From Paramarasmius palmivorus (lineage: Eukaryota > Basidiomycota > Agaricomycetes > Agaricales > Marasmiaceae): DNA of 64,000 bases. Under the pieces are notes generated by a model that worked only from the letters and a program-made list of their open reading frames with translations, made no database searches and was not told the origin of the DNA. The position numbers and the translations under genes are program-made. Below, in pieces: positions 24,398 to 56,456 of this stretch; position 1 is the first letter of the stretch, and each line of letters begins with the position of its first letter. The stretch lies in NCBI GenBank assembly GCA_037176845.1, contig JAYKXP010000141.1, forward strand, positions 51,342 to 115,341, in the 5' to 3' direction.

Positions 24398-25646
24398 CTA
24401 GTACAAACAATACCGATTATAACGACGAATTCTTACCACCTCAACGAGTTTGTGCTCAACCCTCTCCTCCAACATCTCTCCACTGAGCCTCGCAGTATCT
24501 CGAAACCTGTCCCTCATCCAATCGCTAGTTCGAAGTCGTTCCGTGCTTTCTCTATACTTCCCAACGCGCTCAGATTTCAATACCCAATCAAATATCTCCC
24601 GTAATTCGTCATATGGCATCTTCGCATCCGGCGACAATCTCGCCCTTTCCAACTCCTTCGCCAAAAGAACCTTTTTGTCTTCAAACGCCCGGACTTGTTC
24701 ATCCGAAGGCTCAGATTGATAGCGTACCCTGAGCACATCTGCCAGGTCATCAAGCAGCTCTGCAAGTTCTCTGTCCGCGAACTTGACGTCGTCCATATCC
24801 CCTATGGAAAGGTGCCGGCGTTTGCCTCTGCCTCCCATGTACCGGTCGTAATGGTAGCTGTATTCGTCCTCGTCAAAAATCTCTTTAATAAGTGCGGAGA
24901 GGCTTGTTGTGCTAAGTTGGTGGCGAGTAAAACGGAGAGCGAGCCATGTAAGGACATGGTAGAACGATTCGAGATCATCTGCGAGCGAGAGCGGTGGAGG
25001 TGTAAGTGTGTCCTGTAGCATTGCGGACATGAATTGAAGCGTTCCCTGTGTTATGCATCAGTGATCCACATGCGAGGGTTTCGAATCGTAGTCATACCGT
25101 TTGACGAACTGGCAATCCCAGTTCCGAATCCGAATCGACGAGTATACCGCCGCGTTAGAGGTGATAAAGATATTTCCAACGCCAATATTGCCATGAAGAA
25201 TTGCGGCTTTCTCATATAATTGCTGGTGAGCTGGGTGCGACATTAGCAGCGTGAAAAGAGGAATAATGGCCCGATACGTACCTTCCGCGGCGTCCGCCAT
25301 CGCCGATACCATTTGCCCAGTGTTCTCAAAATACAACACCTCTCGGCCAAGATCCTTCACGATGATTCGAGTACGGGGAGGCTGACGAGTTTTTGCAACA
25401 ACTCGAGTATCCCAGCTCTCCTTCGGGTGCCCCGTTTCTCCAGGAACAAAGTTCATGTGCGGGTAACGCGACCAAACTTGGCACCAGAGAATACACTGTC
25501 GGCTGAACCGATCTCGCTCTCGAACATGGTTGACATCCCAGGTTCAGCTTCGAAGAAAGCTTGTTGAGTAGGAATTCAAAGATGAATGGGTTCAAGTTCT
25601 GGCGTAGTCGTCGATACGCTGGCTTTATAAAGCCAGCCAATGTCAT
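24398..25646 (-). pseudogene. FunK1-type fungal kinase, decayed
   Basis: The C-terminal part (25030-24398) shows the FunK1 signature around LQFMSAMLQD and DDLESFYHVLTWLALRFT, and the preceding exon (about 25456-25086) gives the catalytic region. The catalytic loop reads LHGNIGVGNIF where active kinases of the family have H-R-D...N, and the metal-binding position reads NWD, so two key aspartate contexts are altered. The splice between these exons (GTATGA donor after VKR, CACAG acceptor before GTLQFMSA) does not keep the frame; one base is missing. The N-terminal lobe is only represented by broken pieces further right (25488-25870). FunK1 kinases are a fungal-specific expanded family (family knowledge). 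Read as a dead copy. Confidence 0.7.
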
Positions 25647-27261: not shown

Positions 27262-30200
27262 TTACCTCGATAAATCTCTTCCATGACCACTTTTCTTTCC
27301 GTTTGCCCTCTGAAAAGATAGATTAGTCAAAGGATGAATGAATGAACAGCCAGGAAATAGAGCGTACCTCCGTGACATCTTCAAACCGACTCTTTACCCT
27401 TTCTTCCCCAACTATCTCCAGCTCAGGATACCCCATATGTCTAGCAAAGTTAGACGTGGTAGGATCAAAGCCCCGGACGACTTGCCAGTCGCGCATGGCA
27501 TCGTAGATTTCTTCTGTCCATGAGGATAGGAGAATCGGGCCCTTGATAGATGGCTCAAGTGTCGGTACCCCCCATTGCTCGTATTCCTCTTCGGGTAACT
27601 CGGGTTGGCCACTCTCATTCAGTGACCAAAAATGTGTTCGGGATTGAGTCCATGACATGGTTTCCAATACGGATACTGGAAGAGGATAGACAAAAAGGTA
27701 AAGTGGCTGAGTACCATGATTTAACGGTACTGAGACCGGACGAAGTAAGAACTCGGGGGGATTAAGGATGACTATCGAGAAAGTGAGTGTAATCATTGAA
27801 TACCCTGACATAGCATTTGTAGCTCCGTACCATGGTCTTCTGCTACTTTGGCCACCTCGTTACAATCAACGACGCGCGCACGTTGCGACAACCAATACAT
27901 CTGTGGTTTGCGCCTCAAGATGTTGTGCAATACAAAGGACGCAGCTCTGTAGGACTTCAAACTGAACCTACATAAATCGGTACTCAGGAGATTCTCAGGA
28001 AGCGCCACCGTTTCACTCACCGGACTAGCCCGTCACTGAGTACCTTCCTGTCGCTGGGTAATTTCTCGCGATAGATCGAATAGTGATAATCAACGGAGCG
28101 CCAGGTTTCGTCATTAATGTCCTCTCGAGGCCTCATCACAGGCTCCAGTGAAAGAGAGTAGATCGTGTCATAACGAAGGTGGCCTATGATATCTATCGGT
28201 ATCTCCTCCAGTTTATCCCACTGGGGATAGTCTTTTGTGAATTCGCCCGAAGTAAGTGAACTATAATATTTGCCCGTCATTTCAGATAACAGCTCTGCAG
28301 GGGAACGCACTATCATGCAGGAGCTTGCGTTGAGTAAAATACTGGCATCGATGTTAGATTCCTTAATAGTAAGGTCTCTTAAATATTGGAGGATATGTCG
28401 CCCTTCTAGCATTCCTATAGTTGCGGAGGGCACGTCCACATAGATTTCTCTCAAGCGCGAACATCCCAAACTAGGTGAAGGTAAAGGTCCTTCAGGCCCA
28501 ATACAAAGCATGCCCTTTGTATTCAGCCATACCTGTAATAGGGAGCAATAGGCATGGGATTCATTGCGACCCTGTAATAGATATAACAATGGGGTATATC
28601 AGAACATTTGCCATGTAACGAAGGCACCGAAAACCGGACGAACCTGGAGTAAACGAAGAAATATGTCTCCCCAAAATGATGGCTTGTAAAAATGCGCCAA
28701 CGGTACCATTTCTGTAGGCCGAACACGACATGATTAGAGAGCAACACTGACATGAGTCTGAGGATGCAGTACCGTGATGAAAAATCAGAAGCGGAACCTC
28801 CATCAGGAAAATTCCAAAATGGGAATTCGGCCAGCTTCGTCCGTATTTCCGCGAAACCGGGACAAAGTGAACAAAAGCGAACAAATTCCCACTAACCGGT
28901 CGAATTTGATGGTTTGAACGATTTGTTCTAATTCAACATCCCATCTGCGGGTTTGTCAAAATTTGTTCAAATTCATACTCATTTGCGTTGATTAGACTTG
29001 ATTCACTCATCCTTAGTTTGCACTATTGAGTCACTTGCAGCAATCGATAAAGGTATGAATTTTTTTAAAGAAACATGTATTGCAACCCTATCAACTCGTA
29101 CATTGCCATGATATACCAGATCTACGTTATCTACAGTACACGACGCATCCCATCTATCCCACCTGAATTGCTGAAGGAGACTGAAATCGTTCTTTGAGAC
29201 TGACAAGCTATAACGAGGCTATAATCAGCTCAGCTCAGTGGCAACAAAAAATGGAGGTGACATACTGCGAGGGGAATGACCAATGAGAGACGTGATTAAG
29301 GGCGGAATATGTGAATGATGTGGGAGGGGGCCTTGGGGAATGTAGTAGCTGTACAAAGGAGAAGAAATTAGACAAGTTGAATGAAGGCTAGATGAAAAAC
29401 TCACCAACTCAACCAGAACCAAACGAACTCAAGCCATATCTAGTAGAGTCGGGTTAGTCTCTGAAGGTTCCGGTTAGAAATCCACTTTGACCTTGACTTA
29501 GAAGGGACGGCGTGAGCAAGCGTTGAAGGAGTTGAAGAAAGGAAGGATGGGGGTGGAACAAGAAAAGAAAATCAAAGTCCAAAATGACGTGACCGTTCCT
29601 TGTTAAATTCTCGGAAGTTACCGAGCAACTGTACAGTTGATGGTGGCTTCGGAATTAGCCGGATCTGGACTCGGCGCCCAAAACTTGACAACTTGCGCAA
29701 AGTACGGCGTGTACTCCGACAAGCCTCAGTGCACCCCTCTAAGTAGACTGCACCACTAGAACATGCTGTATACCTATAACCGTACTTGACTGTATTATAA
29801 TAAAATAGAGTAATGATTAGCATGCTATATGCAGTCCCTTGACTTGGCCCGCCATATCCAGATACTTGACTCAATAACTCCCCAAGAAGCTGGTGTAAAC
29901 TGACACAAATTGCACTGATTTTGCGTCGCGGGCAGCAAAAGGGAACGAACTCACTCAAATTCTCACAAATCTTTCAAATCTGCGAGAATTACCGGTCGTT
30001 AGGGTCGTTAGAGGTCGTTAGCCGAGGTTGCACAAATTCGGCCGAATTCTCATTTTGGAATTTTCCTGATGTCCCCATGATTGAGACCAAAGAGTTGCCA
30101 TCTATTCGGCTTCCTGCCCGCTGATGAGAGACATTGATTGATGAGTTATATGGAAACGAACCTGTTACACGAATACACTGCAAAATCGTCATCCCACCAA

Positions 30201-30600
30201 CTCTGGGCACCTTCACCCTCATATGCAATAGCAGTGAACTTGGCTTGAGAGCCATACAGCTCAACACTGTATATGGTTCTCTGCCCTCGGTGTCGCGCGA
30301 ACCAACCACAGTTTCGTGATTCATAATCGAAGCAGTCATCCGCGTGAATCTCTTTGACATAAATGACATCTCCAAGCTTGACATCTCGGAACTGGAAAAC
30401 GCGGCAGTGAGCCTCCGAAACGATTTTGAAACAATAAAGCTCACCTGGTCGTACTTGGTCCGCTTTGGTACCATTTGAGTGTTGAAATTGACAGTATGGG
30501 CAGATATGTTATTCGTGTTATTTTGGACCCCTTCCACGCGGTTGAAGATGTTTTGACCTTCGAGATCGATAGTGATGTTCGACGAGTCAGAAATGTCCAT
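27262..30600 (-). pseudogene. Eight-exon orphan-family gene split by a transposon
   Basis: Paralogue of the intact 601-aa gene at 54205-56456. Exons on the minus strand: 30600-30445, 30391-30162, exon 3 in two pieces 30113-30074 and 28800-28773, 28711-28644, 28571-28021, 27967-27831, 27771-27368 and 27309-27262. The pieces of exon 3 total 68 bases, exactly the length of exon 3 in the intact copy, and are separated by the 1,271-bp element. With the element ignored, every junction keeps frame (1,662 bases). It shares with the intact copy FRDVKLGDVIYVKE, ARHRGQ(R/K)TIY, MVPLAHFYK, IGHLRYDTIYS and PELPEEEYEQWG. The exon equivalent to exon 8 of the intact copy is missing, so the last residues differ. 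Read through, the insertion brings a stop within a few codons. Confidence 0.8.
28801..30071. mobile_element. Non-autonomous DNA transposon with 32-bp TIRs (1,271 bp)
   Basis: The left end begins CATCAGGAAAATTCC at 28801; the right end, read on the other strand from 30071, begins with the same bases. The two terminal inverted repeats (28801-28832 and 30040-30071) match at 31 of 32 positions. The flanking dinucleotide TC occurs on both sides (28799-28800 and 30072-30073), consistent with a 2-bp target duplication. Removing the element and one TC restores a 68-base exon. No transposase-like frame is present inside. The right subterminal part contains three GGTCGTTAG repeats (29994-30002, 30003-30011, 30013-30021) and several ACAAATT-type motifs. 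The superfamily is not assigned. Confidence 0.88.
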
Positions 30601-54204: not shown

Positions 54205-56456
54205 CTAGCGCGCAATAGCCCCAATGAATCTTTTCCACGACCATTTCTCTTTCCGTTTGCCTTCTGAAAGAAAAGATTAGCATATAAGCGAACATATGGG
54301 CGTCTAGAGACCCACTTTGACGCTTTGTATCCTTCTTGCGCGCTAATGACACTTCTTCGCTCGATCTCGATTGCTCTTCATCCGCGGCCGGGGTAGGTAC
54401 ATCTTTCGTAGCCTTCGATGCACTCGTATCAGCTACAGTTCGCGTCACCTTCACGGAAGAAAGCATGAGTACAACGAAGGGCCAAATCATACGGTCTAAG
54501 TTCGACATACCTCCGTGACATCCTCAAATCGACACTTAGTCTTGTTTTCCCCAATAATCTCCAGTTCAGGGTACTTCATATGCCGAGCGAAATCGGATGT
54601 TGTAGGATCGAACCCCCGGGCTACTTGCCAGTCGTACATAGCGGTGTAGATTTCGTTTGGCCATGAGCAAAGGAACATTGATCGCTCGCTAGCGGAATCA
54701 AGAGATAACTTCAGTGTTGGTATTCCCCATTGCTCATATTCCTCTTCGGGTAATTCAGGTTGGCCACTCTCGTCCAGAGACCAGAAATGTGTTCGAGCAT
54801 GTCCTTGAGCCCATAACATGGTGTCCAGCATAGATACCGGCGGTGGATACACAAAAAGGTAAAGCGGTCGACTCTCTGAGTCTTGCTTTAAGGGAACTGA
54901 CACGGAGCGGAGGAGGAACATCGGTGGGTTTAGGAAGACTGTCGAAAGTCAGAACAATGGTTGAAAACAACACATTATGCAACGTACAATAGTTTTGAGC
55001 CGTTTTCGTTTCTTCATGACAATCAAAGACTCGCGTACATTGCGATAGCCAAATTTCCCATAATCCGGCTGTCAGGATCCCGAACGATTGTAGAATGACC
55101 TCATCATAAGGATCTAGCTTGAACCTATATACATCATTACCAAGAGAATCACTTGTAGGTGCTTGCCCCACTCACCAGGTTAAACCATTGCTCAGGATCG
55201 TCCCAGGATGGAGTGATTGCTGGTGCATGGGGTGCCAATTTTCTTTCGGCCACCTCATAACAGGCTCCAACAAAGGGGAGTAGATCGTATCGTAACGAAG
55301 GTGACCTATGACTTCCATCGGAAATTCCTCTAGTACATTCCATCGAGGAAAGTCTTCGGGAGCATGGGGATCGAATCCATCCAAAGAGGGTAGGCAGTAA
55401 CTGTCCGCCCTTCTGGTTAAGAGCTCTGTTACGGAGCGCTTTATGTCGCGGGACTTTGCGGCAACTAAAACGGAAAAATCTGTAAGAGATTCCCCAGTGG
55501 TGAGCTCTTTGATACATTGGAGAATGTGTTCCCCCTCAAGCATCTCTATAGTTGTGGTTATGGTTGTTTCCACCTGGATTATCGTTATATCTCCAAAGTT
55601 GATGTCAGACGAATGTGCAGGTCCATCGATCCCATTGCAGAGTACGCCCTTTGAGTTGAGCCACACGTTTTCCGGGAAGTAAGCTCCGAGGTTTTCGTCG
55701 TCGTGACTCTGCAATAGACCCATCGATGGGAATGTGTCAGGCTTTCATGTCCCCGGAAACATCTTGAAAAGCCAGACGGACCAGGAATAGATGAAGAAAC
55801 ACATCTCCCCAAAATGAAGACTTGTAGAAGTGCGCCAGCGGTACCATTTCTGTAAGCCAAACAAAATTAGAGAGTACAGATCAGAAATGAAGATGACGCA
55901 GTACCATGGTGAAAAATCAAAAGCGGAGCTTTCCCGCGATTGAGACCAAAGAGCTGCCATGTATTCGGTTTTCTGGTTGCTTATTAGAGATATCGATTAA
56001 TGAGATTTGGCAGAGACGAACCTAACACGCGAAAAAACGTCGAAATCTTTGTCCCACAGACTCTGAGCCTCTTCACCATCATATGCAATAGCAGTGAACT
56101 TGGCTTGCGAGCCAAATAGCTCGAGGTCGTATATAGTTTTCTGCCCGCGGTGTCGTGCCAAGCAAGTGCCATTTCGCCATTCATAATCGAAGCAGTCATG
56201 TTGGTACATCTCTTTAACATAAATAACGTCCCCGAGTTTCACATCTCGGAACTGTAAACTGCGGTGGTAAGCGTCCGAATTAACTCCCAAGATCGCTTTT
56301 CCGTACCTGATCATACCTGGATTGCTTCGGTACTCTTTGAGTATTGATATTGACGGCGCGAGTGTAGATCGTGTTTCTGGTAATCTGATCACGACCCACA
56401 TTATTGAATGTGTTGTGGCCTTCGATAATGAAGTTAGACGAGCCTGATATGCTCAT
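54205..56456 (-). CDS. Orphan-family protein, nine exons, intact (601 aa)
   Basis: Exons on the minus strand: 56456-56307, 56251-56022, 55972-55905, 55849-55782, 55708-55176, 55124-54988, 54938-54511, 54448-54316 and 54263-54205; they total 1,806 bases (601 aa plus stop). The start MSISGSSNFIIEGHNTFNNV is glycine/asparagine-rich and resembles short N-terminal motifs I associate with basidiomycete proteins of signalling type. Next comes FRDVKLGDVIYVKE, ARHRGQKTIY and FGSQAKFTAIAY, a compact beta-rich domain. A middle part carries VWLNSKGVLC and IGHLRYDTIYS; then LYLFVYPPP and PELPEEEYEQWG; the tail is basic (GKRKEKWSWKRFIGAIAR). The paralogue at 27262-30600 keeps the first seven exons at the same places, confirming the model. 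I recall similar proteins only in agaric genomes, with no known function. Confidence 0.8.

Follow-up and report, generated by a model that had tools for sequence, protein, structure and literature searches.

An exon of a Paramarasmius palmivorus gene split by a short transposon, probably a non-autonomous member of the PlavakaB group

We analyzed a 64,000-nucleotide stretch (the window) that forms part of contig C141 in the 68.3-Mb genome of Paramarasmius palmivorus, and the whole genome was searched for related sequences. As listed in Table 1, the window carries a gene of seven modelled exons, the third of which is split by an inserted element, and about 26 kb away a paralogue in which the corresponding site is empty. 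The split-gene model was predicted by comparison with the paralogue, and its exon 7 ends at the last point compared, where GT comes next and no stop codon. Part of the paralogue carries the annotation VNI00_016813, which matches 69% of the modelled paralogue at 99% identity. No Pfam family scored above the cut-off in three pieces of the split gene or in three of its homologues, for which the best candidate, DUF4595 in P0122, lay far below it. A minus-strand piece of a fungal-type protein kinase (PF17667, 30.2 bits against a cut-off of 24.1) was found at 25058-25543, some 2 kb away from this gene.

Table 1. Features of the window and transposase-enclosing elements found elsewhere in the genome
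Feature	Position	Strand	Detail	Basis
Probable non-autonomous PlavakaB-type DNA transposon	28801-30071	none	1,271 bp	relatives elsewhere in genome; one terminal ~55 bp common to transposase-bearing copies
Left terminal inverted repeat	28801-28832	+	CATCAGGAAAATTCCAAAATGGGAATTCGGCC	repeat search
Right terminal inverted repeat	30040-30071	-	31/32 complementary to left	repeat search
Target-site duplication, left copy	28799-28800	none	TC	flank reading
Target-site duplication, right copy	30072-30073	none	TC	flank reading
Split host gene	27368-30600	-	7 exons, modelled on paralogue	comparison with paralogue
Exon 1	30445-30600	-		paralogue-based model
Exon 2	30162-30391	-		paralogue-based model
Exon 3, 5' part	30072-30113	-	42 nt, including one TC copy	paralogue-based model
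Exon 3, 3' part	28773-28800	-	28 nt, including other TC copy	paralogue-based model
Exon 4	28644-28711	-		paralogue-based model
Exon 5	28021-28571	-		paralogue-based model
Exon 6	27831-27967	-		paralogue-based model
Exon 7	27368-27771	-		paralogue-based model
Paralogue with empty site	54511-56456	-	modelled to same point of exon 7	sequence comparison
PF18759-enclosing element, C202 (L049)	C202:16644-23023		6,380 bp; duplication CC	paired end motif
PF18759-enclosing element, C63 (L048)	C63:158688-165476		6,789 bp; duplication TT	paired end motif
PF18759-enclosing element, C136 (L053)	C136:58794-66253		7,460 bp; duplication TC	paired end motif
PF18759-enclosing element, C110 (L073)			6,566 bp; duplication TA	search requiring matching duplication

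Exon 3 of the paralogue spans 55905-55972 (68 nt), with AG before it and GT after it. The two parts of the split exon, likewise preceded by AG and followed by GT, add up to 28 + 42 = 70 nt, and subtraction of one 2-bp duplication leaves the same 68 nt, a sum that an earlier note on this DNA had written as 28 + 40. When the flanks were joined and aligned with the paralogue, 446 of 573 aligned positions were identical, and no gap lay closer than about 40 nt to the junction. Ten homologues of the split gene were found in P. palmivorus and Moniliophthora roreri; exon 3 was continuous in nine of them, whereas for the tenth (P0121) the gene model leaves this region out. Outside the interrupted exon, no stop codon or frameshift occurred in exons 2, 4, 5, 6, and 7 over 448 codons aligned with the paralogue, exon 1 had an open translation, GT donors followed exons 1, 2, 4, 5, 6, and 7, and AG acceptors preceded exons 2, 4, 5, 6, and 7. 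The empty paralogous site, the uninterrupted homologues, and the related copies with the same ends described below bear out the earlier note, which had placed an insertion in exon 3 of a gene whose other exons were still in frame. The flanks matched only themselves and the paralogue, and thus no allelic empty site on a second haplotype was found.

The element itself is bounded by 32-nt arms that match at 31 of 32 positions (97% complementary), whereas 20,000 shuffled versions of its sequence reached 19 at best. Its left flank ends in ...CCTC and its right flank starts with TCCC, leaving one TC on each side, and its termini read 5'-CATCA..TGATG-3'. Both the repeats and the paired TC are exactly as the earlier note had described them. 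Its further statement that the element holds no transposase frame was upheld by a scan of six of the open frames (five within the element and one crossing its right end), in which Pfam gave no match up to an E value of 1; the longest ATG/GTG/TTG frame entirely within the element encodes 128 aa. No RNA family was found at 28501-30400 and no tRNA across the whole window, and among the best candidates scored, a genome search for captured host sequence returned family members and ends only.

Reading through the insert from the junction-spanning codon meets a stop after 7 codons, and the insert plus the duplication amounts to 1,273 bp, which shifts the frame by one. In the sense of the gene, the registers allowed by the 2-bp duplication start with GACA, ACAT, or CATC and end with GATG, ATGG, or TGGA, so that none has GT..AG borders. 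Because of the early stop, the frame shift, and the want of a GT-AG register for exact splicing, the insertion should break the host gene, and we infer a null allele. Some non-autonomous DNA transposons create introns, and the 1,271 bp might accordingly be a conserved or newly made, introner-like intron that is spliced out of a working gene; the remaining gene is open and keeps its GT and AG borders, as a gene in continued use would. This is very improbable, however, given that no register at the edges of the insert offers GT and AG (which leaves room for inexact splicing), that the paralogue and nine of the ten homologues have exon 3 without an insert, and that related copies elsewhere in the genome have other flanks.

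Long matches to the window element occurred at six other places in the genome, on C13, C127, C45 (two), C104, and C20, the last being a truncated element. Full-length relatives were 1,262-1,302 bp long. Their alignments with the window copy contained 173-231 gapped columns, and identity over the ungapped ones was 79.5-82.6%. Two of them, C13:721822-723123 (L002) and C127:35782-37083 (L003), both 1,302 bp, were identical at 1294 of 1302 positions (99.4%), while their flanks were unlike and their duplications were TT and AA, respectively. Near-identity at different sites indicates that relatives of the window element moved recently.

The end motif CATCAGGAAAAWHCC had 43 matches in the genome and its reversed-pattern control none; a longer end motif, in which as many as 3 mismatches were allowed, matched 27 times and its control once. 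Each of the 15 distinct insertions whose two ends were paired, the window element included, was flanked by an exact 2-bp duplication, variable in sequence (TC 3, AA 3, TT 2, TA 2, and GC, CT, AG, AT, and CC 1 each), and the chance of 15 matching duplications would be about 1e-18 at 1/16 each. Fourteen of these insertions were paired by motif or family match, and the right end of the one on C35 needed a motif relaxed by one base; the CATCA termini of motif-found copies are true by construction. Twelve of the 43 ends (C2, C13:293181, the truncated C20, C21, C40, C72, C87, C115, C128, C175, C182, and C245) were partnerless in the stretch examined and stand outside the duplication count. The search for further copies that the earlier note had suggested yielded relatives with the same ends.

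The copy on C190 was counted once with that on C14 because their flanks are identical. C14:15203-17861 (L060) and C190:50824-53476 (L062) share ends and flanks across two contigs, as do the copies on C40 (L064) and C72 (L065), which suggests that part of the assembly is present as two haplotypes or as duplicated segments. On C7, a pair of CATCAGG ends lies 16.5 kb apart (C7:1018225-1034760) and is flanked on either side by TA; it may mark a large element or a nested one. No PF18759 stretch on C7 was among the matches listed. A minus-strand frame at L043:1273-1695, adjoining a 3,982-bp CATCAGG element of C22, resembles by eye the last exon of the split-gene family.

The earlier note had called the insertion recent. 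In favor of this are the otherwise open gene and the 99.4% identity of the two siblings, but the window copy is considerably less like its relatives, and a recent insertion is plausible yet undated. Alternatively, the insertion could be old and long dead, lying in a pseudogene. The window copy differs from its relatives by 17-21% over ungapped columns, which implies that its source family is not young, and the dN/dS of 0.29 between split gene and paralogue (448 codons; dS about 1.1) is an average over both lineages, which does not date the insertion and says little on the time since it occurred. Nevertheless, such an old insertion is unlikely in view of the five other exons free of stops and frameshifts at that dN/dS, the retained splice borders, and terminal repeats that still match at all but one position.

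The earlier note had also proposed looking for a related transposase, and one was found. The Plavaka transposase family PF18759 gave 105 matching stretches among 100 scored genome candidates, which were collapsed by hand into 53 loci. Ten of the 43 end matches lay within 8 kb of one of these loci, where 0.53 would be expected, and at C202, C63, and C136 PF18759 lies between paired ends; the C202 transposase frame matched the family at 8.4e-106. Each of these three elements has at one end a terminal stretch of 54-55 bp that matches the window element's ends (79.6-83.3% identity); close to its other end, 60-75 bp match positions 94-168 of the window element (74-77%). Beyond the ends and these 60-75 subterminal bp, no match of the window element to the three was found (blastn, E 0.01; C136 less about 3 kb), which argues against its origin by a simple recent deletion inside one of the transposase-bearing copies. 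Instead, it resembles a passenger that carries the same ends. As would be expected of an element mobilized in trans, it has ends and subterminal bp in common with transposase-bearing copies and lacks a transposase.

An end-pair search requiring a matching duplication was run for TGT..ACA ends, those of PlavakaA, or CATCA ends around nine PF18759 loci (L073-L077, L044, L047, L049, and L052). It detected one CATCA pair, on C110 (L073), and a lone CATCAGGAA end in L074; no such pair was found in L075 and L076, and the right end of the C202 element falls outside L049 in this search. A TGT end candidate on C371 (L077), with 5 mismatches, was rejected as hardly better than the 6-mismatch pairs in three of nine shuffled controls. 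The C110 element was excluded as a test of the duplication because its search had demanded a matching one.

The Plavaka transposases of P. palmivorus contain the H(3)H motif. The published C(2)C motif (available text of PMC12730594) is incomplete here: its position reads CPxG, with the second cysteine changed to glycine, in five of the six loci scanned, namely L049 (C202), L048 (C63), L053 (C136), L044 (C2), and L047 (C245), and the motif was not found in the sixth. The best listed homologue of the P. palmivorus transposase outside the species is from Marasmius oreades (66% identity). CPxG also occurs in the M. oreades homologue, in the four closest homologues, and in 14 of 120 listed homologues in all, some of them from Mycena, so that the second cysteine may have disappeared on several occasions. 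In the C136 transposase a near-invariant acidic residue is altered, and hence not every copy need be active.

These data bear on the classification of the element. Tc1/mariner and other TA-targeting elements insert at TA. The window element resembles Tc1/mariner in its 2-bp duplication but differs in the target, which is TC here and TA in just 2 of the 15 duplications, and Tc1/mariner was rejected. On this point the earlier note was right in calling the duplication atypical of TA-targeting elements; its suggestion that the superfamily may be new was not supported. Mirage elements also make a 2-bp duplication. Several groups do so, Harbinger relatives having duplications of 0, 2, or 3 bp (available text of PMC12730594), and as no transposase domain was found in the window element itself, it might belong to a new superfamily that shares this trait with known ones by chance. 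This is scarcely credible, however, when all five bases of its ends agree with those published for PlavakaB and copies with the same ends enclose PF18759.

PlavakaB DNA transposons, as described in the available text of Kojima (December 2025; PMC12730594), are found in Agaricomycotina and have 5'-CATCA..TGATG-3' ends and 2- or 3-bp duplications. The present family shares with them the termini, the 2-bp duplications, and copies with PF18759, and departs from them in that the window copy is 1.27 kb long with no transposase found, and in that no TET/JBP domain was detected in the six frames of the C202 element scanned, which cover part of the element. CACTA/EnSpm elements belong to the same transposase clade and mostly have CA..TG ends, but fungal EnSpm is described there with 3-bp duplications and CAC..GTG ends, against CAT..ATG and 2 bp here; EnSpm/CACTA proper was therefore rejected. 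In Marasmius oreades, autonomous Plavaka copies were defined by PF18759 and nonautonomous ones classed by shared terminal inverted repeats and duplication (available text of PMC8290104), and the same scheme applies here. The window element is thus very probably a non-autonomous PlavakaB member moved by a transposase from elsewhere in the genome, an assignment made on ends, duplication, and linked enzyme family rather than on tree placement. The superfamily is not new, and the element is a further example of the known Plavaka group. A literature search with CATCAGGAAAA returned no match, and within the literature searched we know of no print record of exactly this element family.

In the mechanism that we propose, the element would belong to PlavakaB, cut-and-paste DNA transposons of the CACTA/EnSpm-Mirage-Chapaev-Transib clade, and would retain terminal and some subterminal sequence resembling the full-length copies. 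Plavaka transposase from full-length copies elsewhere in the genome would excise it at its CATCA..TGATG ends, and the excised element would be joined to exon 3 of the host gene at a cut staggered by 2 bp, duplicating TC. Both the movement of the window copy in trans by this transposase and the cut-and-paste steps are what we infer from the shared ends. It is conceivable, though on balance doubtful, that a Marasmiaceae PlavakaB subgroup lacking the second C(2)C cysteine is still active in P. palmivorus, where it mobilizes several short passengers that have hardly more than the ends in common with it.

Plavaka elements have been called understudied, and KDZ and Plavaka together account for roughly half of M. 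oreades DNA elements (available text of PMC8290104). An exon-disrupting copy, a neighboring empty paralogue site, and candidate full-length partners with similar ends offer suitable material for a test of the ends that Plavaka transposase requires. If the active subgroup lacking the second cysteine were real, the activity of Plavaka could be assayed directly, together with the least that it requires of its ends. In other respects this is an ordinary transposon insertion and a clean example of a known group.
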